Shown piece after piece: positions 16,015 through 50,039 of a DNA stretch of 64,000 nucleotides (positions within the stretch are counted from its first letter, which is position 1; the number at the start of each line of letters is the position of its first letter). Below the pieces are notes generated by a model that ran no database searches, had not been told where the DNA came from, and saw only the letters and a program-made list of their open reading frames with translations. The DNA is from Synechococcus sp. NB0720_010 (GTDB lineage Bacteria; Cyanobacteriota; Cyanobacteriia; PCC-6307; Cyanobiaceae). The stretch spans positions 1,366,045 through 1,430,044 of the forward strand of contig NZ_CP090898.1 of the NCBI RefSeq assembly GCF_023078835.1. The letters are read 5' to 3'. The position numbers and the translations under genes were made by a program.

Positions 16015-17508
16015 TCACAGGAGAGTATGAAAAGTATTCTGAAAATGCCGCCTCAGACGACTTGACGAAAGCAAGGAACAGGTTGTAGTCAGCAAAAGAC
16101 CAACACTTAGCAACAGAAGCTGGTTAAGCATTGCGTGCTCAGGAGGCCATATGAGCCTGAGAAGGAGAGCTATCAATAGGCTAGATCCCAGAGGGAATAG
16201 AAGATCGTGAACATACCAGTTCCACCTTTCACCTCGAAGTATGCGTCTGTACATAAACTGAACAGCAATTAGTACATAGAAAAGATTGAGAATGGCCCAA
16301 GATAGTGCTGCCCCAAGAGCTCCGTAACGAGGAGTTAGAAATAGTATCGTTGGAACAAATATTGCAACGGCCACGAAGTTTACCTTGACAGTGAGACTAG
16401 TCCAGCCGTGTGCCAATTGTGTCTGATAAGGTATCCACATGATCCCGTTAAGCAGGTTTCCAATCATTAGCACGCTCAACAGGGGTGCTGTTCGTTGCGC
16501 CAGATCTGGATCTTGGGTCCAGAGGCGCAGGAAGACATCTGCAAAAACAATGATTAAGATGGCAGGACTACCAGCAAGCACACTAACTAATTGAGCGGAT
16601 TTGTGATATGTGTCAGCAAGCACTGGCTGGTCGCCACATGCTTGGAGCTCACACAGACGTGGATAGACGGCCTGACTTATGGGCGTGATCATCATGTAAA
16701 GCACAGCGGCAACTGAAGCAGCCAGGGTGTAATAGCCAAAGTCAGTGAGACTAAGAAGTTTGGAGAGCAGAAGCTTGTCAACCTGAGTCAGCAGCAAAGC
16801 GAGAAAAGTGATACCGAGCAAGCCACCCGCAAAACGCCAGACGCGCCGCAATTCCTGCAACGAGAAACGGGCTCGTTTCCTGATTGGCGGCAGGCTGGCA
16901 TAAGTGAGTGCGGCAAAGATGACGAGAGTCAGAACAGAGAGCAATCCCTGCCAAACGAAAAAGGCTTGGATGGAGGGCGAAAGCCAAGCGAGTACACACA
17001 CAGCACCCAAGCCGCGCACAGTGGACAGACAGCTGTTGACAATGTTGAAAAGCACCTGCCGCTGCAGCCCCACGATGCTGCTGCGGTAGATACTCTCGGC
17101 AAAGCGCAGAGCTGTAACCAAGCCCATAATAGCGAAAGCCTGGCCGACAACCTCGATTGATAGCTCATCAGACCTGAGCCAGTAGGTAGCAATCCAGTTG
17201 GCTCCAAGTGAAACCCCAACGGCGATCACCAAGGCGATGCTGATGATGATCACTTCGATGGTACGAAGAAGATCGCGAATCGACTGGCCGCTACTGCTTC
17301 CACCGGTAAAGCGGGCCATCTCCCGGCTCAGAGTCGGCGTCATTCCCATATCAAGCAGACTGAGCCAGGCCGTAAGCACAGCAAATAAACCAATCAGGCC
17401 ATAGGATTCAATTCCGAGGTATTTAATGTAGATCGGCACAAAAGCCAAACCCATCAGTGCACTCCAGGCCTGCCCGATGTAATTAGCAATGAGATTTCGC
17501 TTTAGCAT
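16015..17508 (-). CDS. wzx: Wzx-type oligosaccharide flippase
   Basis: 497 residues, almost entirely hydrophobic, with about 12-14 predicted membrane segments in the pattern of the polysaccharide-specific transporter family (MOP superfamily). The N-terminus 'MLKRNLIANYIGQAWSALMG' followed by 'YLGIESYGLIGLFAVLTAWL' matches the typical Wzx opening, in which an amphipathic helix is followed by the GxExYGLxG loop. 'LLTQVDKLLLSKLLSLTDFG' near residue 260 is the second conserved loop. The protein flips undecaprenyl-diphosphate-linked repeat units across the plasma membrane. The 5' half looks more GC-rich than the 3' half and than the genes downstream. It sits directly next to the IS5 relic that marks the change to the GC-rich core. 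Confidence 0.9.
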   Translation of the reverse strand: MLKRNLIANYIGQAWSALMGLAFVPIYIKYLGIESYGLIGLFAVLTAWLSLLDMGMTPTLSREMARFTGGSSSGQSIRDLLRTIEVIIISIALVIAVGVSLGANWIATYWLRSDELSIEVVGQAFAIMGLVTALRFAESIYRSSIVGLQRQVLFNIVNSCLSTVRGLGAVCVLAWLSPSIQAFFVWQGLLSVLTLVIFAALTYASLPPIRKRARFSLQELRRVWRFAGGLLGITFLALLLTQVDKLLLSKLLSLTDFGYYTLAASVAAVLYMMITPISQAVYPRLCELQACGDQPVLADTYHKSAQLVSVLAGSPAILIIVFADVFLRLWTQDPDLAQRTAPLLSVLMIGNLLNGIMWIPYQTQLAHGWTSLTVKVNFVAVAIFVPTILFLTPRYGALGAALSWAILNLFYVLIAVQFMYRRILRGERWNWYVHDLLFPLGSSLLIALLLRLIWPPEHAMLNQLLLLSVGLLLTTTCSLLSSSRLRRHFQNTFHTLL

Positions 17509-26353: not shown

Positions 26354-27363
26354 GATCGCTGCCCAGGACTGGAGTAATTGGTAGCGAGCAGCTCGACTTC
26401 TCGGATTGCGAGCTAACCACGGCAAAGAAGCAGACCAAGCGGGAGAAGTTTCTCGCTGAGATGGAGGCGGTGGTGCCATATGAGGCGTTAATCGCACTGA
26501 TCGAGCCTCGCTACCCCAAAACGAATAAGAAAGGCGGACGACCTCCCTATCCGCTGGCCACGATGCTGCGATTCTATTTCTATATGCTGCAGCAGTGGCA
26601 TTCCCTCAGCGCCCCGGCGATGGAGGAGGCCCTTATTAAGGTGTTTACCATGCGCCGATTTGCCGGCATCGAGCTGATCAGCGTCCGGATCCCCGATTAC
26701 ACCACGATCCTCACTTTCAGCCAGCTGCTGGAGAAGCACAAGCTGGGCAAGCAGATCTTTGAGACTAGGAAAGCCTGTCTCAGCAAGCGGGGTATGACGA
26801 TGCGGCAGGGAACGATTGTGGATGCCACCTTGATCGCGGCTCCCAGTTCGACCAACAACAGGGAAGGGAAGCGGGATCCGGCGATGCACCATCCCAAGAA
26901 GGGCAACCAGTGGTATTTCGGAATGAAGGTCCACGGCGGTGTGGACAAAGACTCGGGCCTAATTCATTCAGTGGACGTGACCGACGCCAACATGCATGAC
27001 CTCCTCCCCGCTGCTGAGCTGTTGCATGGGGAAGAAGTGATTTACTGCGAAGCCGGATACCAGGGCATCGCCAAAAGGCCTGAGATGGCAGGCAAGACAA
27101 TACATTCGTTTTAGCGATTCGGCCCGGCAAACGCAGGGCCCTAGCAGACACACCTGAGGGAAGGCTGCAGGATCGCATCGAAACAGCCAAAGCTCACATC
27201 CGCTCCCAAAAAGGTGAGCACCCCTTCCCAGTAATCAAGCCGCAGTTCGGCTTTCAAAAGACCAAGCTGCGTGGCCTGGCCAAGAACCGCTACAAGATCA
27301 ACTTGCTGGCAGAGTTGTAGAATCTGTACCAGGTCCGACGGCAGTTACTCATGGCAGCCTGAC
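26354..27363 (+). mobile_element. IS5-family transposase pseudogene (one frameshift, one stop)
   Basis: A nearly complete IS5-family transposase. The first reading frame carries 'QLDFSDCELTTAKKQTKREK' (upstream of the first ATG at 26461), 'MEAVVPYEALIALIEPRYPK', 'LRFYFYMLQQWHSLSAPAME', 'RQGTIVDATLIAAPSSTNN' (first catalytic Asp) and 'WYFGMKVHGGVDKDSG' with 'VDVTDANMHD' (second Asp region). A frameshift near 27100-27115 (after 'AGKT') moves the rest, 'PGKRRALADTPEGRL' to 'LRGLAKNRYKINLLAEL', into another frame, where one TAG interrupts it before the terminal 'NLYQVRRQLLMAA' and TGA at 27361-27363. The few lesions suggest more recent inactivation than the other relics. It separates the CDP-sugar and UDP-uronate modules. 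Confidence 0.9.
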
Positions 27364-34055: not shown

Positions 34056-35138
34056 TCAGGACTTCGTCTCAGGCAACTGGCCGTCTTTAATCATCACCAA
34101 AGCGACCCGCTCAAGGCCTGGCAACTGCAACAGCAATCGACGCGCTTCTTCAAGTGCCAGCCGAGAGTTAAAGCCAGCTTCAACCACGAGCAGCACCCCG
34201 CCAGGATGCGTCGACGGAAAAGCCGGAAGGACATGCTCGAGCAGTGGGGGCGCAGCTTCTAGCTCGATTGCCTCCGCAATTGGCTCAACGCAGGGATGGT
34301 CGGCAGCAATGCTCATCACCTTCCAGTGCGTCTCTGGGTCGAGCAGCTCCCGTAGCTGCCCTAATGCAGCCTGAGCGGCCAGACCCTGCCAAGGCAGAGG
34401 GCTGAGAACAGCCAGCAGCGGAAAACCAAGCTGCTGCTCAATCAGAGCACAAGAAAAAACGCGATTCGACCGACGATCCGTGAGCAATGCAGCTGCAGCA
34501 CCGAAAACACAGCCAGCCAAACCCCAAAAAACAATGGGCTTTGCAGGGGAGGGAGGAACAACCTGTTCAGGCCAAATTGCGACAAAGGATTTTTTCGCTG
34601 GGGTTGCAGCTGCATCCAAATCATTGGATGCAGCTGCAAGAGTTTTGAGCTTTAGGTCATCGAATAGTGCGCGGTAACTAACAACTTCTGAAGAAGGAAC
34701 TGTTGCGCTGACCCAAAGGAGTTGATCTGATTTGAGACCTTTGGTCTTTGATGTGCCGATCTCGAAAAGATTGCGTTGCTGTTTAGTAGCAGGAATACTC
34801 TCAAAAGCTTGCCGTACCATGAGATTGGCCGATGCAGGCTTATAACGGGGCTCAAAAGTCGTGACAAGCAAAGGACCCATCGAATCGGACTTGTCCATGG
34901 AAGCTTGCGATGGAACCTTAGGCCCAGCAGACAAATCAAGGACCATTCCAAGCTCAACTCGAGATGGCTGAGTAAATGCAACCGCCCCACCCAAGAGCAA
35001 ACCAGTAATTGAAAACCCTGCCATCCAGCGCCAACGGCGCCTCAGGGCTGCGGCAAGCTCGCGCAGATCAATCTCATCATCCATCGGGGGGTTTGAAATC
35101 TCATTTATCACGGTGTTGTGCTGCTTTTGGTTGATCAT
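34056..35138 (-). CDS. wzz: Wzz-like chain-length determinant protein
   Basis: 360 residues. The N-terminal 'DDEIDLRELAAALRRRWRWM' with 'AGFSITGLLLGGAVAF' is the cytoplasmic tail plus first membrane helix of the Wzz family. 'PAKPIVFWGLAGCVFGAAAA' (about residues 199-218) is the second helix, preceded by the proline-rich 'PEQVVPPSP'. About 140 residues after it form a cytoplasmic extension resembling the Rossmann part of BY-kinases ('VLLVVEAGFNSRLALEEARR') but without a visible Walker A motif or tyrosine cluster. The periplasmic part is shorter than in classical Wzz. ATG 35138 overlaps the ugd stop (ATGA). Probably regulates polymer length. Confidence 0.78.
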   Translation of the reverse strand: MINQKQHNTVINEISNPPMDDEIDLRELAAALRRRWRWMAGFSITGLLLGGAVAFTQPSRVELGMVLDLSAGPKVPSQASMDKSDSMGPLLVTTFEPRYKPASANLMVRQAFESIPATKQQRNLFEIGTSKTKGLKSDQLLWVSATVPSSEVVSYRALFDDLKLKTLAAASNDLDAAATPAKKSFVAIWPEQVVPPSPAKPIVFWGLAGCVFGAAAALLTDRRSNRVFSCALIEQQLGFPLLAVLSPLPWQGLAAQAALGQLRELLDPETHWKVMSIAADHPCVEPIAEAIELEAAPPLLEHVLPAFPSTHPGGVLLVVEAGFNSRLALEEARRLLLQLPGLERVALVMIKDGQLPETKS

Positions 35139-38471: not shown

Positions 38472-39622
38472 GGCTTGATCGCAGCCGGATTGGTGGGCGG
38501 ATTTTCCATGGAACCGACCACCGCAAAACCCTGCTTGCGCAGCAGCGCTTCCTTGGCCGCTTCTTCTTTGTCGGCTGCGACCATTTCAGCCACCAACTCC
38601 TCCAGGGTCGTGGTCGGTGTCCAGCCCAGCTTCTCTTTGGCCTTGGCGGGATCGCCCAGCAGCGTCTCCACCTCCGCAGGACGGAAGTAACGGGGGTCGA
38701 TGCGCACGACCACGGCACCGGTATCGCCGCGTCGGCCGACCTCAGCGATGCCGCTGCCTTCCCACTGGATGGCACCCCAGCCCAATTGCTGGGCCGTCAG
38801 TTCGATAAAGCGGCGCACGCTCTCCTGGCGCCCCGTCGCAATCACGAAATCTTCGGGCGACTCCTGCTGGAGCATCCGCCACTGCATCTCGACGTAATCG
38901 CGGGCGTGACCCCAATCCCGCAGGGAATCGAGATTGCCCATGTACAGGCACTGATCCAGATCCGCATCAATGCGCGCCAAACCACGGGTGATCTTGCGGG
39001 TCACGAACGTCTCACCACGCCGCGGCGACTCGTGGTTAAACAGCACGCCATTGCAGGCATACATGCCATAGGCCTCGCGATAGTTCACCGTGATCCAGTA
39101 GCCATACAACTTGGCCACCGCGTAAGGACTGCGGGGATAGAACGGGGTGGTCTCTTTCTGGGGGATTTCCTGCACCAGGCCGTAGAGCTCACTGGTGCTG
39201 GCCTGGTAGATGCGGGTCTTCTGGGTCAGCCCCAGCATCCGCACAGCCTCCAGGATCCGGAGGGTGCCGAGGGCATCGCTATTGGCGGTGTATTCCGGCG
39301 CCTCGAAGCTCACCGCCACATGGCTCTGGGCACCCAGGTTGTAGATCTCATCGGGCTGCACCTGCTCGATGATCCGAATCAGGTTGGTGCTGTCCGTCAG
39401 GTCCCCGTAGTGCAGCACCAGCCGCGGGTCGGCCTCATGGGGATCTTGATAAAGGTGATCGATGCGGCTGGTGTTGAAGCTGCTCGCGCGGCGCTTAATG
39501 CCGTGCACCACATAGCCCTTCTCCAGCAGGAGCTCCGCCAGGTAACTGCCGTCTTGGCCGGTGATTCCGGTGATCAGCGCTACCCGCCCGCGGGAATCAA
39601 CGGCTTCTGGACGGAAACTCAT
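38468..39622 (-). CDS. gmd: GDP-mannose 4,6-dehydratase
   Basis: 384 residues. '[20 protein letters not shown]' is the diagnostic NADP site, '[20 protein letters not shown]' is the NADP-2'-phosphate-binding segment, and '[20 protein letters not shown]' carries Tyr and Lys. '[19 protein letters not shown]' is the GDP-mannose binding block. The C-terminal extension of about 30 residues ('[15 protein letters not shown]') is longer than in most bacterial Gmd. Product GDP-4-keto-6-deoxymannose goes to fcl. GDP-mannose synthesis genes are not in the window. Confidence 0.96.
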
Positions 39623-40800
39623 GGCTCATCACCCTTCAAAGACGGCTCTCCCGCGAGAGTGCCAATGACCAGGAAGCCTACGTAGAAGAGCAAGCCATCC
39701 CCATAGAGCAGAGGCTGGAACAACCACTGCACACTCAGGCAAAGCAAGAAGCCGGCTGCGATACAGCCATCGAGCTGCAGCTTCTCCTGGCGGAGCACCC
39801 GCACCAGAGACGCAAGAGCGCGCAGCACCAGGGGCACCAATGCCAGCAGCAACAGCAGCAGCGGCAACCAGCCCACCCGGACGTAGAGATCCAGAAAGAC
39901 GTTGTGCATCAACTCCCCCTGGCTGGCATCGAAGGCCATGGCGCTGGACTGAAAGCTCAACCTGTTGCCACCCCAAGGGAACTGAGGCGCTACGGGGAAA
40001 AACCCTGCGAAGCGATCGAAACGCTCGTCCGTCAGGCGAAGGCCGAGCCGGGGAAAACGCCACACCGCCAGGGCCAAGGCCGTAGCCCCTGTCAACAGCG
40101 CCAAGCCCAAGGCCTGCTGGCGCCGCCGAGATCGCATCCAGCCCACGGCGACGGGCAAAGCGCCCAGGGCGAGCACTAACCAGCCCAGCCGACCGCTGAA
40201 ACACAGCGTGGCGGCCCAACCGAGCACGCCAGCCAGAGCGATGAACTTCGCCATGGCGGATCGGCTCAGTAACCACAGCCCAGGAAGCAGCCAGGCGCAG
40301 GCCAAGGCTGCGTTCTGCTCGACCGAACGCACGTTGACGAGCGGGTCTGGACCCCAAGGAGCGGCGATGGTGCTGTCTCGGCGGAGCAGCCACAACGCAA
40401 GCCAGCCCCCATCGGGGCTAAAGACCCGGCCGTGCAGCAACACGATCCAGACGTAGGCCAGGGCACCGAGGCCATAGGCCAGCCAGAGCCAGCTCCTCTG
40501 CCTCCAGGAGAGCACCGCCGCGGCGCGGGCACCAATCCAGACACAGCCGGCGGGGAGCAGCAACATCGAGACCAGATCCAACCGATCCCGCCCCCCCAGC
40601 TGCCAGAAGCCGTAGTGCACGGAGATCGCGCTGTAGCTGATGGAGAACAGCACCAGAGCGCCGAGGCACCAGCGCAGTTGGGGCGCCAGGGGAGGGGCCT
40701 TACGGGTGCGCCAGGCCAGTAGGGCCAAGGCCGCGTAGAGGAGCGTGAAGGCCTTGGGCAGATGCAGGCCGATCAGGCCAAAGAGAAGGGCTTCCATCAA
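39619..40800 (-). CDS. O-antigen ligase/polymerase family membrane protein
   Basis: 393 residues with about 10-11 hydrophobic segments. A long periplasmic-type loop around residues 250-300 includes '[20 protein letters not shown]' and ends in '[20 protein letters not shown]', the H-N-x3-L...G motif of the Wzy_C (O-antigen ligase) family in which the His is functionally required. It either polymerises repeat units or ligates finished polymer to lipid A core; sequence alone does not decide. A second family member is at 58108. Overlaps GT61 upstream and gmd downstream by ATGA. Confidence 0.8.
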
Positions 40801-41903
40801 CTCAGGGCCTGCTCCAGGGCCTGCAGATCAACCCGCAGCTGGCGTTGATAAGGATGCAGCAGCCGATCGAGTCGGGCGGACTCCACCGCCGGTGGGCAAG
40901 GGAACGGCCGCTGCAATCCCCGTTGGAACCCGTTGTAGAGGCCACCCCCCAGCACCGCCTGAGCCGGGTCATAGCCAGCGGCGCAGCGGGGATCCAGCTC
41001 CAGCAGGTGATAAGGCTCGCTGCGGCAGAGCAAGGAGTTCAACGCCATCGAACCGTGCTCACACCAAAGCTCGCCGGCCTGGCGCAGGCGCCGCAGCAAG
41101 GCCAGGGGCGCCATCTCCAGGGGATTGAGCACCGTGACGTGATGGCGCTCAAAGCAACGGAGCACCTCCGGCAGGTTGACGATGCGCTCCTCCCGCAGCG
41201 AACAAAGAAACAATCGCTCCCCCCGGATGGAACTCTCACCAACGGCGACAGCCGGGGCCAACAAGTCCCTGGCCAGGCTGAGGTTCTGCCAGGGACTCAG
41301 GCGCGGCAACAGCAACGCATCGGTGAGTTGCCAGTTCACCTCTAAAAGCTGCTCAGGAGTGAACAACTCCACGCTCCCCGTTGGACAGAGCTGCTCCAGC
41401 AAGGCCGCCCACTCAGGGGAGGGTGCTGTGACGAGCAGGCGGCGGCCGCCGGCGCTGACGCGCGGGTCACGAGCAAACCAGAGGATCGCCCCAAGGCAAT
41501 CCCCTACCCAATGGCCGAAATGGCTCGTGCTGTGGGGGAAGACCGCGTAGGGCCCCTCCAAAGGGCGCTTCGTTTTGCCCAGCTGCTTGCGGATCGTGTG
41601 GAACTGGATCGTGCGGGGCGCCGCGGCCTGAGCTCGGCTACTGCCGCCGCGCAGGGTCCAGGTCTCGATGCTCGGGTAGTGGGGAACCGCAGAGCTGCGA
41701 TAGGGATGGCTGACCAAGAGCGCCGGGGCGGGTGCCGCCAGGGTCAAGCGATCGAGATCCAGCACGGTCTGCCCAACCCGGGCCGCCGGTAACGGCGCAA
41801 AACCCAAGGGCGAAAGGGGATGGTGGTAACCCAGCAAGCTTGTATCCGCCGCCTTCAGCCAGAGCCAGCGGGCCCAGTCGCCAAGCCGCTTCACCAGTAA
41901 CAC
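40797..41903 (-). CDS. Glycosyltransferase family 61 (DUF563) protein
   Basis: 368 residues. The DUF563 signature is seen in 'YAVFPHSTSHFGHWVGDCLG' (about residues 120-139, with the conserved His-Trp in FGHW), 'LFTPEQLLEVNWQLTDALLL', 'NLPEVLRCFERHHVTVLNPL' and 'AGELWCEHGSMALNSLLC' (H-G-x-A-L/M-x-N-x-L donor block). GT61 enzymes in plants add xylose or GlcNAc; bacterial members occur in capsule loci. With UDP-xylose synthase in the same operon, xylose transfer is a plausible inference. It overlaps the downstream ligase by ATGA, and its 5' end overlaps the upstream gene by 13 bp. Confidence 0.85.
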   Translation of the reverse strand: MLLVKRLGDWARWLWLKAADTSLLGYHHPLSPLGFAPLPAARVGQTVLDLDRLTLAAPAPALLVSHPYRSSAVPHYPSIETWTLRGGSSRAQAAAPRTIQFHTIRKQLGKTKRPLEGPYAVFPHSTSHFGHWVGDCLGAILWFARDPRVSAGGRRLLVTAPSPEWAALLEQLCPTGSVELFTPEQLLEVNWQLTDALLLPRLSPWQNLSLARDLLAPAVAVGESSIRGERLFLCSLREERIVNLPEVLRCFERHHVTVLNPLEMAPLALLRRLRQAGELWCEHGSMALNSLLCRSEPYHLLELDPRCAAGYDPAQAVLGGGLYNGFQRGLQRPFPCPPAVESARLDRLLHPYQRQLRVDLQALEQALS

Positions 41904-42808
41904 CTCCCATCAACCTGATCGGCACCAGCAGGGGTTTCCGCCAAGGAAGGGCGCACCCAGCTGGCGTTCATCAGCTGCTGAAAACGCGGGCTGGCCTCCC
42001 AGCGGCGGCCTCGGATGCCAAACAGCAGCTGCAGGGCTCCGCCCACATGAACAGCCACGCGGCCGGAGTCAGCGATGGCGGCGGCCAGGGGCAGGCCATA
42101 GGCCCCGCAACCCAGTAACGCCACATCAAAGGTCAACGCTGTCACCTGCCCTTGCAGCTGATCGAGCGCTTGCTCCCAGCTGGCATAGCCCTGGGTGGCT
42201 CCAGCCAGGGTCTGAGGGGGCACCAGGGTGATCAACTCAAAAGCCGGCAGCACAGCCGGGTTAGCGAACAGCTGCTCGCGCCGCTGCCATTGCTGCTCGA
42301 TGCTGCGGGCAAAGGGGTGCACCACCAGCACCCGCTTGCCTGCCAGGGCCGCACTCCAGGGCTGAGCGCACCACCAGGGCTCCAGGGCCGCCAGGCTGCA
42401 GCGCTGGGGCAGCGGCTCCAGGCCAGCCACCAACGCCGCTTGGTGGGGGCTGTCCCATAGGGCCATCAGATCCACCCGCTCCAGGGCGCTCTGCAACCGC
42501 GCCGCCACCGCACGCAAGGCCGCAGGCTCCACCGGGAAAATCCCGGCGTTGCGGTGGGCTTCCCGCAGGCTGACCCGGCTGAACGGCGCTACTCCAGGGC
42601 GCTGCGCCTCCGCCAGCAAACGCGCTTCCACCGAGCCCAGCCGGCCCACCAGCACAGGCCGCTGCTCGCGGATGGCCTCGGCGATCCAAAGACCGGCCTG
42701 CTCCTCACAGAGCTGCCCTGCAAACACCTGCGGATAGCGCCAACGCTCAAGTCGGTGGGCGACACGGCGCCCCTGCTGCTTGATGCTGTGGCGCCATTGC
42801 CAATTCAT
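41891..42808 (-). CDS. GT-D-fold-like putative glycosyltransferase (copy 1)
   Basis: 305 residues from ATG 42808 (MNWQWRHSIK), which overlaps the GT4 stop as ATGA. 'VLVGRLGSVEARLLAEAQR' (about residues 51-69) resembles the R-F/L-G-x-G/V-E motif of GT-D enzymes (DUF1792/GlyD-like). 'LAGKRVLVVHPFARSIEQQW' (about 157-176), 'FDVALLGCGAYGLPLAAAIA' and 'VHVGGALQLLFGIRGRRWE' are shared with the protein at 62239, and both end in Cys-Tyr-Trp. The family is recognised mostly as uncharacterised proteins of polysaccharide loci; the GT-D assignment is from motif resemblance. GC-rich codon use contrasts with its AT-rich paralogue. Confidence 0.72.
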   Translation of the reverse strand: MNWQWRHSIKQQGRRVAHRLERWRYPQVFAGQLCEEQAGLWIAEAIREQRPVLVGRLGSVEARLLAEAQRPGVAPFSRVSLREAHRNAGIFPVEPAALRAVAARLQSALERVDLMALWDSPHQAALVAGLEPLPQRCSLAALEPWWCAQPWSAALAGKRVLVVHPFARSIEQQWQRREQLFANPAVLPAFELITLVPPQTLAGATQGYASWEQALDQLQGQVTALTFDVALLGCGAYGLPLAAAIADSGRVAVHVGGALQLLFGIRGRRWEASPRFQQLMNASWVRPSLAETPAGADQVDGRCYW

Positions 42809-44050: not shown

Positions 44051-44980
44051 TCAGCGCACCCCGAGCAGACGCAGGGCTTTGCGTCCCTTGCGCAGCAGCT
44101 CGGCGCTGCGACTGCGCCGGTACAGGCGCGCAAAGGTGTCGGCGTCCCGCAGCCGGTCCGCCTGGATCACCGTTGGATGGCGCAGCGGAACAGACACCGT
44201 CCCCCGGGGCCCCAAGGGGGAGCGCTCATCGAGGGTGTGGGTGGCATCGGCGTCAAAGCCGATGTTCTCGGCCAGCTCGGCCGACGGGATCACCGTCAAA
44301 AACCCCTGCTGCCAGCAGCTGAGCTGCCAGATCATGTCCCAGGTGTCGATCTGACCTTGGGCGAGGGCTTCGAGCCAGCCGCCCCAGGTGCGGGCGAAGC
44401 CGCGCCCCCCCAACTGCTCGAGCCAGAGGCCCTCCCGAAACGCCGGCCAGCCCTTGAGATCGCGGTCGTAGCACTGCCAGGCCCGGCGCCAGCTGGCCCA
44501 GCCCCAGCAGTGGCTGTAGATCGAAAAGCGATAGCTGCTGCCATCGGCCGGGGGCCGGCGCTGATGGTTGTTAGCTGCGATGGCCCCGACGCGGCTGTCA
44601 TCGCGGTAGCGCTCCAGAAGCTCCTGGCAGTAGAGGAAAAAACTGGGATCAACCAGGATGTCGTCCTCGAGAACAATCCCCTCGCTCTCGCACTCAAAAA
44701 ACCAATCCAGCGCAGCGGTGACGCCGGCGCGGCAGCCCAGATTGCTCGGTTGAAACAGGCGCTCCAGCTGGCAGGGCCAATCGATCAACCCCTCAGGCGC
44801 CGGCGCTAACAAAGCGCGCACCGCAGCACAGCGCTTGTCTTCGCCGGCACGCGTCGCGCGGGGGCCATCACAGGCCACATAGAGCCTCTCGGGCTGGAGT
44901 TCTCGCAGCACCTCAAGCACCCGAGCCGTGGGCCCCGGGCGGTTGAAAGCGATCAGCAACACCGGAACCGCAAAGCTCAT
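44051..44980 (-). CDS. GT-A-fold glycosyltransferase ('GWASW' family, copy 1)
   Basis: 309 residues from ATG 44980 (MSFAVPVLLI), overlapping the upstream stop as ATGA. Conserved blocks are 'LLIAFNRPGPTARVLEVL' (nucleotide-binding strand), 'LYVACDGPRATRAGEDKRC', 'NLGCRAGVTAALDWFFECES', 'EGIVLEDDILVDPSFFLYCQ' (metal-binding EDD, about residues 111-130), 'CWGWASWRRAWQCYDRDL' and 'ENIGFDADATHT'. The same blocks in the same order occur in the proteins at 54090 and 55990, which defines a three-member family in the window. The fold is a nucleotide-diphospho-sugar transferase; the acceptor is unknown. Confidence 0.85.
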   Translation of the reverse strand: MSFAVPVLLIAFNRPGPTARVLEVLRELQPERLYVACDGPRATRAGEDKRCAAVRALLAPAPEGLIDWPCQLERLFQPSNLGCRAGVTAALDWFFECESEGIVLEDDILVDPSFFLYCQELLERYRDDSRVGAIAANNHQRRPPADGSSYRFSIYSHCWGWASWRRAWQCYDRDLKGWPAFREGLWLEQLGGRGFARTWGGWLEALAQGQIDTWDMIWQLSCWQQGFLTVIPSAELAENIGFDADATHTLDERSPLGPRGTVSVPLRHPTVIQADRLRDADTFARLYRRSRSAELLRKGRKALRLLGVR

Positions 44981-47385
44981 GGCGCCAGCAGCAGATAACC
45001 CATCCCGTACCCCGCCGACATCAAAGCGGAGAAGGCCAGCCAGGGCTTGAGCAGCCAACTGCGCGAGGCAAGCAAGGCCAGCAGCGCCAGGCTGGACAGA
45101 TCAATCCAGACCCGGGTGTAATCGGGGAAGCGCGCCAGGATCTGGGTCGAGGTGCAGAGCGCCGGCAGCAAATAAAGGACCGAGGCCAGGCGCAACCAAC
45201 GGCCGCCCCAGCCGCGCCAGGCCGCGAGTACCAGCACCCCAAGGGTGAGCAACCAAAGGCCAAAGCAACCGGCGTCAAACAGCCGCTCCAAACCGCTGGG
45301 TTGGAGATCGGCCAACTGCCTCAGTCCCAGGAGCTGCAGACCTTTCTGAAGGGCACCCCCTAACGGGAAGCCGAAATGAACGCGGGCCAGGGCCCCGTCG
45401 GGCACGGCAGCAAACCGTCTCGTCAAGGTGCCAGACCAGAGCAGCAGCGGGAGCGGCACCGCCGCCAGCGGCAATAGCCAACGCCAGCGCCGCTCCCGCA
45501 ACGCGCTCAGACCACTCGCAGCCCAGGCGATCAGACCGGTCTCCCGGGTCAGGCTGGCAGCGATCAAACTGAGCCAGTGGGGCAGTAGACGCGCCTGACG
45601 GGCTGTCAGGGCAGCAGCGAGCAGCAGCGTGGTCGCCAGCAAATCAGCAGTGCTCAAGCTGAGGGTGATCCAGTACCCCGGCAGGGCCAAAACCGCCAAC
45701 CCCCACCCCGCTGAACGCTGCTGCAGCTGGGCCCAGGCCGCCACCAAGGCCGCCGCGCAACCCATACAGACCACGTTAAGCAGGCCCAGGGTCCAGACGA
45801 TCAGCTGGGGTTGCCCCAGTCCGCTCAAATAGGCCAACAGCGGATAGAGCAGGCGTTTACCCCGATAGATCGGATTGTCCAAGGCCTGACTGCTGCCTAC
45901 ATCCAGTTGCCATGGATCCAGAGCGAGGCTGAGAAATTGCTGGCCGTCGTTGCCGCGCTTTCCCGCCAGGCGCACCACGGGTTGATCCGCCAACCGGGGC
46001 GAAATCGGCAGCTGATCACCAACGCGAGCCAGGCCGGTGGGATTGCCTCCGTACTTGCCGAACACCAACAGCGCCCAGACCAACAGGGCCATCAGGCCCG
46101 CCAACACGCCCACGGCCTTGGGGCCCAGGGGTGCCTGCCCCCCTTTCAGCCAGCTCTTCAGAGTGGGCCAACTGGGCCAGCCGGGGATGCTCAAGCCCTG
46201 ACCCCAGACCTGACGCAACAGGCGTTGCTCATGGGCCCAAGACGTGGAGGGTTCCGGAGGAGCGGGGTCCTCACCAAAAGCGAGTTGCTGCACCAAGTCC
46301 TGCCAAACGGCAGCGACGGTTTGGACAGCAAAGCGCTCCTGGCAGCTGTGCTGTCCGCCCTGCCCAAGCTCCCAAGCCCAACTGGACTGCTGCAACAACT
46401 CAATGCAGTAATGCGCCAACTGCTGATCGCTGCTGGCAAGCAAGCCGCTTCGGCCCTCCAGAACTGTTTGCACCAGGGCGTGGCGGCGCGGTGCCACCAC
46501 GGGGATGCCGCAGGCGTTGAACTCAGCGGCACTCAGGCAGAAGGTTTCATCGCGGCCACTGGGGTTGACCACCCCAACGGCTACCTGGGCAAAAGCGTCG
46601 TAGCGCTCCAGGCCGCTGCGGCCTTCAAAGGAGACCCGATCGCTATAGCCGCCCCGCTCCAGCAGGGCCAAGCAGTGCCGTTCGTAGGCACTCAGGCTGG
46701 TGGAGCGGGCACCGCCGTAGAGATCTGCTCCACCAAAGACCCTCAGCTGGGCATCCGGGCAGGCGCGGGCGATGCGCGGCCACTGTTGTGCCAGCCGATC
46801 AAAGGCCTTGAAGGGCGTGATCGCTCCCACATAGGCCAGGTCCTTAGCCGCCGCGGCCTGCTCCAAGGTCCGGGGTTGGCGCCAGGCCGGCGGCACCGCC
46901 ACGGGGTTCGGGATCACGACCGCCCTTTGGGCAAGCCGGCTGTGGCGGAAAAAATCCAATTGGGCGCCGCTGACGAGTACCCAACACCACAGGGCCGGCA
47001 GAGCCTCGTAGCGGGCCTGGTCATGGCAGCCCAGGTTGTGCAACCAGGCGATCAGGGGCAAAGGACTGGTTTCAAGCGCCTGCCAATCGGACCGATCGGC
47101 AAAACCAGGGCGGAACACCAGCGCCTGGGAGCCGCCGTCCCCTGCGGCCTGAACTGCAGTCGCCAAGGAATCGACCACTGCCATGCAGGCAGTCGGAATG
47201 CCGTCAATCGACTGCGGAGCCGTGAGCAACAACAACGGCTGCAGCGGACCCTCTGCTGCGAGCTGAGCGACGACGGCCAGGAAGGCAAACTCGGTACCCC
47301 CGATGCCGGGATTACCCAGCCGTGGGTCGCTGAGGCCACCCCGCTCGGCGATGCCCCGGTTGTCGAGGAAAAAGGCAAGCCGCAT
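44977..47385 (-). CDS. GT4 glycosyltransferase fused to a polytopic membrane domain
   Basis: 802 residues from ATG 47385 (MRLAFFLDNRG). Residues 1-400 form a GT4 module: 'GNPGIGGTEFAFLAVVAQLA' (glycine loop), 'VVIPNPVAVPPAW', 'LAYVGAITPFKAFDRLAQQW', 'VGVVNPSGRDETFCLSAAEF' (E-x7-E equivalent). Residues about 440-802 form a membrane domain of 9-10 helices with a large loop 'RGNDGQQFLSLALDPWQLDV' and 'YRGKRLLYPLLAYLSGLGQP', which resembles GT-C/DUF2029-type integral membrane transferases. Such a soluble GT-B plus GT-C-like fusion is unusual. It heads the 11-gene minus-strand operon. The first in-frame start at 47556 would lie inside the divergent gene and is rejected. Confidence 0.85.
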   Translation of the reverse strand: MRLAFFLDNRGIAERGGLSDPRLGNPGIGGTEFAFLAVVAQLAAEGPLQPLLLLTAPQSIDGIPTACMAVVDSLATAVQAAGDGGSQALVFRPGFADRSDWQALETSPLPLIAWLHNLGCHDQARYEALPALWCWVLVSGAQLDFFRHSRLAQRAVVIPNPVAVPPAWRQPRTLEQAAAAKDLAYVGAITPFKAFDRLAQQWPRIARACPDAQLRVFGGADLYGGARSTSLSAYERHCLALLERGGYSDRVSFEGRSGLERYDAFAQVAVGVVNPSGRDETFCLSAAEFNACGIPVVAPRRHALVQTVLEGRSGLLASSDQQLAHYCIELLQQSSWAWELGQGGQHSCQERFAVQTVAAVWQDLVQQLAFGEDPAPPEPSTSWAHEQRLLRQVWGQGLSIPGWPSWPTLKSWLKGGQAPLGPKAVGVLAGLMALLVWALLVFGKYGGNPTGLARVGDQLPISPRLADQPVVRLAGKRGNDGQQFLSLALDPWQLDVGSSQALDNPIYRGKRLLYPLLAYLSGLGQPQLIVWTLGLLNVVCMGCAAALVAAWAQLQQRSAGWGLAVLALPGYWITLSLSTADLLATTLLLAAALTARQARLLPHWLSLIAASLTRETGLIAWAASGLSALRERRWRWLLPLAAVPLPLLLWSGTLTRRFAAVPDGALARVHFGFPLGGALQKGLQLLGLRQLADLQPSGLERLFDAGCFGLWLLTLGVLVLAAWRGWGGRWLRLASVLYLLPALCTSTQILARFPDYTRVWIDLSSLALLALLASRSWLLKPWLAFSALMSAGYGMGYLLLAP

Positions 47386-47418: not shown

Positions 47419-49086
47419 ATGCGCTGCAGGAGCCTGATGGGGGCAGCGGTGGCACTGGCCCTGCTGATCTGGCTGCCGCTGGGGCTGGCCGGCGTGCCTC
47501 TGGACACCCCAGACGGTTTTTTGCACCTGGGTTGGGCGGTGGGCTGGGTCAAGCAACTGCAGCAGGGCTGGCTCTGGCCCACCTGGAGTGATCTGCCATG
47601 GGCCGGTGCGGGGAGCAGTGCCCTACTGATCTACCCACCCCTATTTCGCTGGTTGGTCGGGGTGCCGCTGCTGCTAGGCCTTCCCTCCGATCACGCCCTG
47701 GCCGCAGGTCTGCTGCTGCTGCTGCTGCTGCACAACGGCGGGGTCGCTGCGCTCGCCATCCGCTGGCTCCCGAAACCGCGATGGCGCTGGGCACTGCTGA
47801 TCGCTGCCAGCCTGAATCCCTACCTCCTGGTCAACATTTATGTGCGCGGGGCCTGGCCGGAAGCCCTGGCTCAAGCCCTGCTCTGGTGGCTGGCCTTGGG
47901 GTTCTTGGGACTGCAGCACCGGCGGCCCTGGGGGTGGCCGCTGGCAGGTCTTGCGCTGGCCGGCATCACCCTGAGCAACTGGAATGCAGCTCTGTTGACC
48001 GGGGTGGCTTGGGGCCTAGCGGGCCTGCTGCTAAGGCGCAAAGCTTGGCTCTGGAGCGGCGCCCTGGGGGCCGGACTGGCGATGCCCTTTTGGTTGCCAG
48101 CACTTCAGGCGCTGCCATCCGTTCGCCCCCCAATCCCTGCGGGCCTATTGCCAGGGGAATTTTTTGCGGACATCGATGTGGGCTACCGCAGCTTTGCAGC
48201 GCTGCTCTGGATCCAAGCGGTGGCGATTGCCCTGCTGCTGCTCTGGCGCTGGATTGGCTGGCGTGGGGCCTCCCCCCTAGCCCGCTGGGGTGCCCTGTTG
48301 GCTGTCCTCTCTCTGCTGATGGGCCTCTCGATCAGCGGGCCGATCTATCAGTGGCTGCCAGCGCTGCAGCGCATTCAATTCCCCTGGCGCTGGCTCAGCC
48401 TGGGCTGGTTTGGTGCCCTGCTCTGGCTCGCCTCAGCCGCCGAGCAAGCCCCGGGCACCAACCGAACCCGACCTGCTGCTCTCAGCCTGATCGGTCTGGC
48501 TGCCGCCGGCTGCTGGTTCGACGGGCTCTGGCGCTTCCGCAGCAATCTCTGGGGCCATGCCCCGAGCGCCAGCGAGCGGATGGCCCTGCGCAGCCTGCTG
48601 CGCTGTGATCCCCTGACACCCTGCCCAGCAGGCGTGGCTGCGCTGCCTAAGGAGGGGGAACTGGCCAAGCGCTTTGTGGCCCTGCCCGATGGCCGCGTTG
48701 CCCTGAGCGGCGTACCGGACTACAGCCCCGCCGGGGTCCCTGAGTCGTCTTGGAACAAGCGGCTGGCCATTTTTTGGCTGCCGACCTGGCCGCAAACCCA
48801 CTGGGCCGAATGGTCTGGGCAAGGCAGGCTCACACTGCTGGAACGCACGCCGCGCAGCCGGGTGCTGGAGGTGAACGCCACCAGCTCCGGCCGGCTGCGA
48901 ATCATGCAGTGGGCCCATCCCAGCTGGCGGGTTCAGGTCAACGGCGGTCAAGGCTGGAGCGATCCGCTGCCGGCGGGAGCGAGGGATTCCGAGGGCTGGA
49001 TCAGCGTCGAACTGCCGGCCGGCCGCTCCCACGTGGCCTTGAGCTACGGCCAGCTGCGATCAGGGCCCGTACGATCCCGGCCATGA
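47419..49086 (+). CDS. Polytopic membrane protein, PTPS-related/GT-C-like
   Basis: 555 residues from ATG 47419; the in-frame upstream region is open only because it is antisense to the GC-rich fusion gene. An alternative ATG is at 47437. About 10-11 membrane helices in the first 380 residues; 'VPLDTPDGFLHLGWAVGWV' at residues 26-44 carries the Asp-...-His loop after helix 1 that is characteristic of GT-C glycosyltransferases and of the '6-pyruvoyl-tetrahydropterin synthase-related membrane protein' family. The last about 175 residues ('LTLLERTPRSRVLEVNATSS', then 'GWISVELPAGRSHVALSYG') form a periplasmic beta-rich domain as in YfhO-like proteins. Probably transfers a sugar from a lipid-phosphate donor. 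Overlaps the GtrB-like gene by ATGA. Confidence 0.78.
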   Translation: MRCRSLMGAAVALALLIWLPLGLAGVPLDTPDGFLHLGWAVGWVKQLQQGWLWPTWSDLPWAGAGSSALLIYPPLFRWLVGVPLLLGLPSDHALAAGLLLLLLLHNGGVAALAIRWLPKPRWRWALLIAASLNPYLLVNIYVRGAWPEALAQALLWWLALGFLGLQHRRPWGWPLAGLALAGITLSNWNAALLTGVAWGLAGLLLRRKAWLWSGALGAGLAMPFWLPALQALPSVRPPIPAGLLPGEFFADIDVGYRSFAALLWIQAVAIALLLLWRWIGWRGASPLARWGALLAVLSLLMGLSISGPIYQWLPALQRIQFPWRWLSLGWFGALLWLASAAEQAPGTNRTRPAALSLIGLAAAGCWFDGLWRFRSNLWGHAPSASERMALRSLLRCDPLTPCPAGVAALPKEGELAKRFVALPDGRVALSGVPDYSPAGVPESSWNKRLAIFWLPTWPQTHWAEWSGQGRLTLLERTPRSRVLEVNATSSGRLRIMQWAHPSWRVQVNGGQGWSDPLPAGARDSEGWISVELPAGRSHVALSYGQLRSGPVRSRP

Positions 49087-50039
49087 ACACCGCAGCCCGC
49101 CCACCTCGGCCGCTGATCAGCGCGGTGGTTCCCTTTTTGAACGAGGCCGCGACCCTGCCGGTCCTATTTGCGGAACTCGAGCAGCAACTTGGCGCCCTGG
49201 GGCTTCCCTGGGAGCTGGTGTTGGTGGATGACGGCAGCAGCGATGGATCGTTAGAGGTGGTGCGCGCCCAGCTGGAGCAACGGCCTCAACTGAAAGCGAC
49301 GGTGCTCAGCCTCTCGCGCAATTTCGGCAAGGAGGCGGCCCTGACTGCTGGCCTACAGGCGAGCCGCGGCGATGTGGTGGTACCCCTGGATGCAGACCTG
49401 CAGGACCCCCCCGAGCTGATCGGCGCCATGCTCAAGCAATGGCGGCAAGGCTTTGACGTGGTCTACGCCGTGCGACGCCGGCGGGCGGGCGAGAGCAGCA
49501 CGAAGCGCTTCACGGCCTTTGGCTTTTATCGGCTAATGGGACGGTTAAGCAGCACGGCCATCCCCGCAGACACCGGCGACTTCCGGCTGATGGATCGCTG
49601 CGTGGTCGAGGCCTTGCTGCAGCTGCCCGAGCGCAGCCGCTTCATGAAGGGCCTGTTCGCCTGGGTGGGGTTCCGCCAAAGCGCCATCCACTACGACCGT
49701 GATGCCCGACAAGGTGGTAAGAGCAACTGGAATTACTGGAAGCTCTGGAACTTCGCCCTCGATGGCATCACCTCCTTCAGCCGGGTACCCCTGCAGGTCT
49801 TGAGTGGCAGTGGAGTAGCGATCGCCTGCGTGGCGCTGCTCTATGGCAGCTGGATGGTGCTGCGCACGTTGGTCTTTGGCATCGATCTACCCGGCTATGC
49901 CTCGTTGATGACCGCCGTGCTGTTTCTCGGGGGCGTTCAACTCATTGGCCTGGGGGTGCTGGGTGAATACCTCGGCCGGGTCTTCGAAGAGGTGAAAGCC
50001 AGGCCGCTCTATTTGGTTCGAGAGCGCTGGGAACAGTGA
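49083..50039 (+). CDS. GtrB/DPM1-like GT2, polyprenyl-phosphate glycosyltransferase
   Basis: 318 residues from ATG 49083. The GT2 domain has 'ISAVVPFLNEAATLPVLFAE', 'ELVLVDDGSSDGSLEVV', 'GDVVVPLDADLQDPPELIGA' (D-x-D, about residues 98-117) and 'DTGDFRLMDRCVVEALLQLP'. Two C-terminal helices ('VLSGSGVAIACVALLYGSWM' and 'SLMTAVLFLGGVQLIGLGVL') anchor it in the membrane. This layout is that of GtrB/DPM1 enzymes that make undecaprenyl-phosphate-sugar donors, used by GT-C enzymes on the other face of the membrane. The coupled membrane protein at 47419 is a candidate acceptor-side partner. Confidence 0.92.
   Translation: MNTAARPPRPLISAVVPFLNEAATLPVLFAELEQQLGALGLPWELVLVDDGSSDGSLEVVRAQLEQRPQLKATVLSLSRNFGKEAALTAGLQASRGDVVVPLDADLQDPPELIGAMLKQWRQGFDVVYAVRRRRAGESSTKRFTAFGFYRLMGRLSSTAIPADTGDFRLMDRCVVEALLQLPERSRFMKGLFAWVGFRQSAIHYDRDARQGGKSNWNYWKLWNFALDGITSFSRVPLQVLSGSGVAIACVALLYGSWMVLRTLVFGIDLPGYASLMTAVLFLGGVQLIGLGVLGEYLGRVFEEVKARPLYLVRERWEQ

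Follow-up and report, generated by a model that had tools for sequence, protein, structure and literature searches.

A 64,000-nucleotide stretch of the Synechococcus sp. NB0720_010 genome (contig NZ_CP090898.1, positions 1,366,045 to 1,430,044), hereafter the window, carries in a surface-glycan locus a gene that joins two glycosyltransferases (GTs) in one chain of 802 amino acids: a GT4 module, followed by a GT-C-like membrane domain. Both halves are of known kinds, and it is their joined form that is unusual. The fusion is real and is kept in related species. We consider its product to be more likely than not a bifunctional membrane-anchored glycosyltransferase of an O-antigen-type or capsule-type polysaccharide locus, with the GT4 addition made inside and the GT-C addition outside. 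The gene and its parts are the following.

44977..47385, minus strand: GT4/GT-C-like fusion gene, 802 amino acids, from the open reading frame and its orthologs
46234..47385, minus strand: cytosolic GT4 (GT-B fold) module, residues 1-384, from PF13692/PF00534 and Foldseek, with a boundary set by us
46522..46548, minus strand: EX7E motif, residues 280-288 (E280, E288), identical in eight of eight rows, the window included
46123..46233, minus strand: linker, residues 385-421, its second half of low model confidence
44980..46122, minus strand: GT-C-like membrane domain, residues 422-802, NCBIfam NF046093, about 11 helices, from profile, model and fold match
45850..46053, minus strand: large outer loop after helix 1, residues 445-512, with R454, D480, D490, D503, R508 and R511 invariant in 16 of 16 rows

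The gene is one intact frame that runs from an ATG at 47385 to a stop at 44977-44979 with 0 internal stops. An earlier note on this DNA had proposed a single 802-residue chain at these positions without naming a strand, and the chain is indeed there, on the minus strand; in the plus strand at the same coordinates, frame 1 is interrupted by stops. When the bases of the segment (66% G+C) were shuffled 500 times, the longest open stretch was 562 codons and the mean 195. The frame stays open upstream of the ATG, giving 859 amino acids if counted from a TTG; since all eight rows of our fusion alignment (the window included, with L034 and L080 truncated by contig ends) start at the same methionine, with MR.A.FLDNR, ATG 47385 is the likely start. 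A frameshift or missed stop joining two ordinary genes, which the earlier note named among the things that would refute its proposal, is ruled out by six genomes that have a complete fusion without internal stops. The fusion is not an assembly artefact either, because complete versions, at 62-65% identity, are held by these 6 of 400 genomes of the family.

The N-terminal half is a GT4 module with an intact catalytic motif. Its residues 180-334 contain matches to PF13692 at 52.1 bits and to PF00534 at 39 bits (cut-offs 27 and 26.4, respectively), and a Foldseek search with the full model ranks GT4 enzymes of GT-B fold first, namely MshA (E 5.2e-12), the sucrose-phosphate synthase tll1590 (E 1.0e-11), BshA, PimB' and HepE. 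To this GT-B fold with its Glycos_transf_1-type domain are added E280 and E288, the EX7E motif of retaining GT4 enzymes, and K193, the basic residue for the donor phosphate; G29, G30, T31, K193, E280 and E288 are identical in all eight fusion rows. The family matches, the fold and these conserved residues bear out the assignment of the first half to GT4 that had been made from the letters. By its GT4 membership, this half would catalyse a retaining transfer from a nucleoside diphosphate sugar. The GT-B fold and EX7E are common to it and to MshA, BshA, PimB', HepE and tll1590; those enzymes were solved without a GT-C domain, whereas in the window a GT-C-like domain follows.

The membrane half belongs to NF046093, the AZOBR_p60025 family, which NCBIfam annotates only as 'cell surface glycopolymer formation protein'. 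The match covers residues 429-644. With the curated cut-off at 150 bits, the whole protein scores 165.5 bits, and two cuts of the membrane half alone reach 158.1 and 167.7; all 16 aligned membrane domains (window included) match the profile at E 0.001 or better. The earlier note did not place this arrangement in a standard family; the membrane half by itself is already a named one.

Over the whole domain, a GT-C fold is predicted for this half. Modelled alone it gives a mean predicted local distance difference test score (pLDDT) of 90.1 and a predicted template modelling score (pTM) of 0.91, with about 11 membrane helices and a large loop after the first; the loop had been correctly anticipated, the count of 9-10 helices had not. 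The pattern of helices and loop in this predicted model agrees with an N-terminus inside and an active site outside. In the PDB, Foldseek ranks first a structure of ArnT with undecaprenyl phosphate (E 2.9e-3 at a probability of 1.00), apo ArnT is also among the best, and rows at a probability of 0.16 or less (rank 3, for instance) are unrelated proteins. VIA-align, run on the 1000 chains that Foldseek ranked highest, found 57 with a Z of at least 5. The best 50 of these 57 have Z values of 10.6-19.2, the top one with a root-mean-square deviation of 3.9 over 288 residues, and consist of entries for OST, PMT, ALG, ArnT, PimE, Emb, Aft, DPY19, glycosylphosphatidylinositol (GPI)-mannosyltransferase and GPI-transamidase. 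Judged by title and by the nature of these families, each is a GT-C enzyme, a complex containing one, or a GPI-transamidase subunit that is GT-C-like. When a mostly helical model has no clear match, the notes of the tool put the best Z typically at 14 and the Z at rank 50 at 6 (up to 13). We favour the GT-C fold because one superfamily fills the list (best 50 of 57), and the GT-C likeness that the earlier note had suspected, and had staked its reading on, is thus supported by fold. A membrane half without such likeness is ruled out on fold, and sequence searches alone would have missed it. Against the Pfam families GT87, Glyco_transf_22 and DIE2_ALG10, which we take to be GT-C families, the window protein has no match at E up to 10. 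Among the 16 membrane rows, some unfused relatives give weak matches to GT87 (two rows, best 3.3e-4), Glyco_transf_22 (one row, 2.4e-4) and DIE2_ALG10 (one row, 4.7e-3), in a Pfam list in which eight chance-like families also stand.

Thirteen charged positions are invariant in all 16 membrane rows, the window included. With the N-terminus assumed to be inside and helix limits that we set from the full-length model, nine fall in outer loops: six in the one following helix 1 (R454, D480, D490, D503, R508 and R511), two in outer loop 3 (R614 and E615) and one in outer loop 4 (K681). Of the other four, K444 and D581 are located at outer helix ends and R758 and D762 within helix 10, so that inner loops have none. 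According to PMC6801728, GT-C enzymes mostly have 11 or 13 helices and show conserved patterns in outer loops 1, 2, 3 and 5 or 6, with a DxD or DD (D/E) motif in loop 1 and a late Rx4-14P reported across the eukaryotic GT-C families treated there. As in GT-C enzymes, the outer loop after helix 1 has conserved acids (D480, D490 and D503, in 16/16 rows), of which D480 is the best candidate for a catalytic acid. ArnT, PMT, ALG9/ALG12 and PimE, GT-C enzymes that use lipid-phosphate-linked monosaccharides, are like the membrane half in predicted fold, in the approximately 11 helices, in the invariant acids of loop 1 and in the charges of the outer loops; unlike them, the window protein lacks a Pfam GT-C match, a profile match to PDB sequences and DxD, and has an extra cytosolic GT-B module before helix 1.

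All genome searches were made within the class of the window, in a family sample of 400 genomes and class samples of 291 and 388. A search for other fusions had been suggested by the earlier note, and it found them: at E 1e-20, 11 of the 400 family genomes match, six of which, from three genera, have the complete fusion (the window, G023, G013, G422, G452 and G505). In two others the GT4 side runs to a contig end (G018, G583), in one the membrane side does (G012), and two have the membrane half only (G007, G491). The fusion gene is rare in the family, since 389 of the 400 genomes have no match. Half of the complete fusions (the window, G013 and G023) come from one-contig genomes. A contig scan gave six loci, all cyanobacterial (L031-L036), which are records of the same genomes under a second label (L031 is G505, L032 is G422, L033 is G452, L034 is G583, L035 is G491 and L036 is G007). 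In plasmids and phages, no fusion-related match was found at E 1e-5, E 0.01 and E 1e-3. Four pairwise comparisons, one of them with saturated synonymous changes, put the ratio of nonsynonymous to synonymous substitution rates (dN/dS, NG86) at 0.12-0.24 in each half; over the 40 codons of the linker it spans 0.02 to 0.57 in four pairs. The linker motif HExRxLRxxWG...PxWPSWP is kept in all six aligned rows that are long enough to reach it.

One feature that emerges from the comparison of these loci is that the same place can be occupied differently. In L036 (HJ21-Hayes) the gene order is as in the window, with a GT2, a GT4, another GT, a donor-synthase-like GT2, the divergent membrane protein MEM2 (see below), the membrane half and the downstream genes. 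Its membrane half stands alone, and where the GT4 half would be lies a separate 317-amino-acid gene on the opposite strand. L035 is arranged in the same way, and its slot gene is related (46% identical over 314 residues).

L035:287-1291 and L036:6909-7862, minus strand: slot gene of the unfused genomes, filling the GT4 slot

The slot gene of L036 has no Pfam or NCBIfam match. L035 and the fused L032 are 88% identical over 218 bases at the end of MEM2 and 91% identical over 1046 bases of the membrane half, where homology starts near the beginning of helix 1; between these flanks (1.2 kb in L035, 1.4 kb in L032) blastn finds nothing on the same strand at E 1e-10. Of nine loci searched with the slot protein at E 1e-3, L035 and L036 alone give a match, and at E 1e-10 its relatives occur in 6 of the 400 family genomes, including four genomes of another genus of the family; none of the six has a complete fusion. 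No remnant of the GT4 half or linker is visible, in frame and alignment, upstream of the unfused L035 and L036 genes; the search match of L035 ran back to query residue 368, but that stretch is unlike the linker. A tree built from the membrane halves places L035 together with the fused L031 and L032 (99/100). The fused or unfused state has changed at least twice (the starred branches force two changes, parsimony three) on this tree, whose deeper forks among the eight close rows are without resolution and whose long outgroup-side branch, L079, is flagged. The GT4 half is therefore replaceable as a unit, whether by gain, loss or swap.

Because the membrane half occurs alone in other genomes, it can do without the GT4 half. 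It is likely the older partner. Ten of the 291 genomes of the class sample exceed the NF046093 cut-off, and among these only the window has its copy within a long frame (881 codons); of the remaining nine copies, eight are in frames of 386-434 and that of G043 is in two pieces, while some matches below the cut-off, outside this count, sit in long frames (911, 926). Around nine unfused loci (L071-L079), most neighbouring frames look unlike glycan genes by eye, the exceptions being a frame next to the L079 copy that resembles a GT2 and one in L078 that resembles a sugar nucleotidyltransferase. The earlier note had also asked after the two halves as separate genes. For the membrane half these exist, in other cyanobacteria and, in L035 and L036, at the same locus, but a free-standing version of the same GT4 half is absent from the 400 family genomes at E 1e-20, two GT4-only matches stopping at contig ends. 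With the eight GT4 halves as query and a limit of E 1e-20, the 388 class genomes gave three further relatives, of which the best scored 148 bits, two of them free-standing (433 and 413 amino acids) and the third extending to the end of the retrieved stretch.

The surroundings of the gene are those of a surface-glycan locus, with a Wzz-like protein (34056-35138), a UDP-sugar dehydrogenase, a nucleotide-sugar epimerase/dehydratase, several GTs and a Wzx-like exporter (16015-17508). Two neighbours bear directly on the fusion.

47419..49086, plus strand: MEM2, divergent neighbour, a 555-amino-acid polytopic membrane protein that adjoins the fusion at most loci, though not at every one
49083..50039, plus strand: GT2 of the polyprenyl-phosphate-sugar synthase kind, a candidate lipid-donor maker, from NCBIfam matches below cut-off

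The GT2 scores 266 bits against PgfS (cut-off 500) and 177.9 bits against PRK10714, an undecaprenyl-phosphate sugar transferase (cut-off 529); as both scores are below the cut-offs, the name given here is a class assignment only. It adjoins MEM2 in four of the six loci where its place is visible (the window, L067, L068 and L036). MEM2 has no Pfam or NCBIfam family at the limits used, bar one chance-level Pfam row, and is 58-66% identical to six others aligned from the same locus; in L080 it is not beside the fusion. That MEM2 might be a homologue of the membrane half is unsupported (hhalign probability 4%). The plus strand opposite residues 1-525 of the fusion (window 45811-47385) is open in one frame, and a mechanical listing of open reading frames therefore gives MEM2 a false frame of 1091 amino acids.

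We propose that, with the N-terminus inside, the GT4 module would use a nucleotide donor to attach one sugar to a lipid-linked unit at the cytosolic face, and the GT-C half would add one sugar from a polyprenyl-phosphate donor at the outer face, through an active site located in the loop that follows helix 1. The GT2 at 49083-50039 would be the likely donor synthase in the window genome. One chain may couple two reactions. The fusion would keep both enzymes in a single place and at a single copy number; because their active sites should face opposite sides, it could only co-localise the two stages, with no direct handover of product without a flippase. The GT4 module may then be an exchangeable specificity cassette placed before a GT-C enzyme able to work without it. 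In the combined picture, one chain would make two transfers, one at each face of the inner membrane, and the GT4 half would be swapped in and out before a constant GT-C enzyme through recombination at the boundary of the domains; this is possible, though less likely than not, and we put it forward tentatively. If true, a swap of the GT4 half would change the surface glycan with the outer enzyme untouched, an enzyme-level analogue of serotype switching.

Another of the known systems close to it is the three-component extracytoplasmic glycosylation described in PMC11127046, with GtrB, GtrA and Gtr*, including the GT136 system of Citrobacter. Like that system, the window combines within a single surface-glycan locus a GT2 that resembles donor synthases with a GT-C-like enzyme; it differs in that a GtrA-family flippase gene is missing from the window and that its GT-C-like enzyme carries a cytosolic GT4 module. 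As no GtrA-family gene (PF04138) lies in the window, with two elsewhere in the genome, this is not a classical three-component Gtr cluster.

Several observations weigh against the bifunctional scheme or against the fold on which it builds. For the membrane half, every Foldseek match stayed above E 1e-3, and searching the PDB sequences by profile gave nothing up to E 1; the VIA-align Z of 10.6 at rank 50 is within the range for unrelated helical models, so that only the top rows are clear. Set against the eukaryotic motifs given in PMC6801728, the DxD or DD of loop 1 is not conserved, the invariant acids of that loop being isolated, and Rx4-14P does not apply as no conserved proline lies behind R758; because of both, we file the membrane half as GT-C-like by fold and in no named GT-C family. 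The inner-loop R632 is kept in 15 of 16 rows. The full-length model is confident within each half, but not in how the two are placed relative to each other (pTM 0.60, linker pLDDT about 50). The presumed donor synthase is not always near: the 6.1 kb that follow MEM2 in L032 contain no match, and L080 has a different GT gene directly beside the fusion with no MEM2 between. Finally, coupling cannot be essential, since unfused copies stand at the same locus.

The two enzymes might act independently in the same pathway, an exchange in the slot having joined a GT4 frame to the membrane gene without gain; a neutral or incidental fusion of this kind would agree with the unfused slot of L035 and L036, with a state that changed at least twice on the tree and with linker dN/dS values that are not uniformly low (0.02 to 0.57). 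We nevertheless regard it as rather unlikely, given a frame kept in six complete genomes of three genera, a linker motif kept in 6/6 rows, and no free-standing copy of the same GT4 half at E 1e-20 among the 400 family genomes (two GT4-only matches lie at contig ends). Still less probable, to our mind, is a membrane half that acts as a GT-C-fold ligase or polymerase and moves a lipid-linked oligosaccharide instead of a single sugar. The annotation of NF046093, only 'cell surface glycopolymer formation', would allow it, and the highest Z values include oligosaccharyltransferases, users of lipid-diphosphate-linked oligosaccharides; the best Foldseek match and many VIA-align rows, however, are users of lipid-phosphate monosaccharides (ArnT, PMT, ALG, PimE), a donor-synthase-like GT2 lies two genes away in the window genome, and a separate membrane protein (39619-40800) could be the polymerase. 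A GT4 half that is catalytically spent, or that merely binds the acceptor and recruits the GT-C enzyme to the growing glycan, we hold to be very improbable. The membrane domain is found elsewhere without GT4, and H116, at a position that we take to be often conserved among GT4 enzymes, is replaced by serine in two of eight rows, a replacement that also counts against the bifunctional scheme; yet the GGT, K193, E280 and E288 are identical in 8/8 rows, and purifying selection on this half is similar to that on the membrane half.

Surface-glycan enzymes are usually sorted by the face of the membrane on which they act, and a conserved chain of a cytosolic GT-B part and a GT-C part that should work outside makes it possible to ask whether two stages of assembly are physically coordinated. 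Since fused and unfused alleles occur in close relatives, with flanks that are about 90% identical, the effect of the fusion is testable. NF046093, annotated only for 'glycopolymer formation', gains from this a concrete enzymatic hypothesis, that of a GT-C transferase.

Literature searches gave no paper on the founding protein AZOBR_p60025, and none on domain swapping in cyanobacterial O-antigen clusters when all terms were required. No GT4/GT-C fusion was named in the titles and abstract openings searched, in which subscription journals were mostly uncovered. PMC10920833, a paper on GT-C classification, uses neither 'fused' nor 'GT4' in its main text, and 'fusion' and 'fused' are absent from the available part of PMC11127046.

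Other genes of the locus gave minor observations. Next to the fusion, 44051-44980 (minus strand) encodes a 309-amino-acid protein without a family match, and a protein with the same VPVxxIxFNRPxxT opening adjoins a free-standing GT4 relative in L084. The membrane protein at 39619-40800 (minus strand), 393 amino acids long and hydrophobic, has no family match and is a candidate polymerase or ligase by position and look only. At 26461-27114 (plus strand) a 217-amino-acid frame lies within the glycan locus, and its opening presumably resembles that of an IS5-type transposase. The gene at 41891-42808 (minus strand) encodes a protein with a GT-D-like domain (PF22882, 32.8 bits, cut-off 27), relatives of which are found in the same locus of other genomes.

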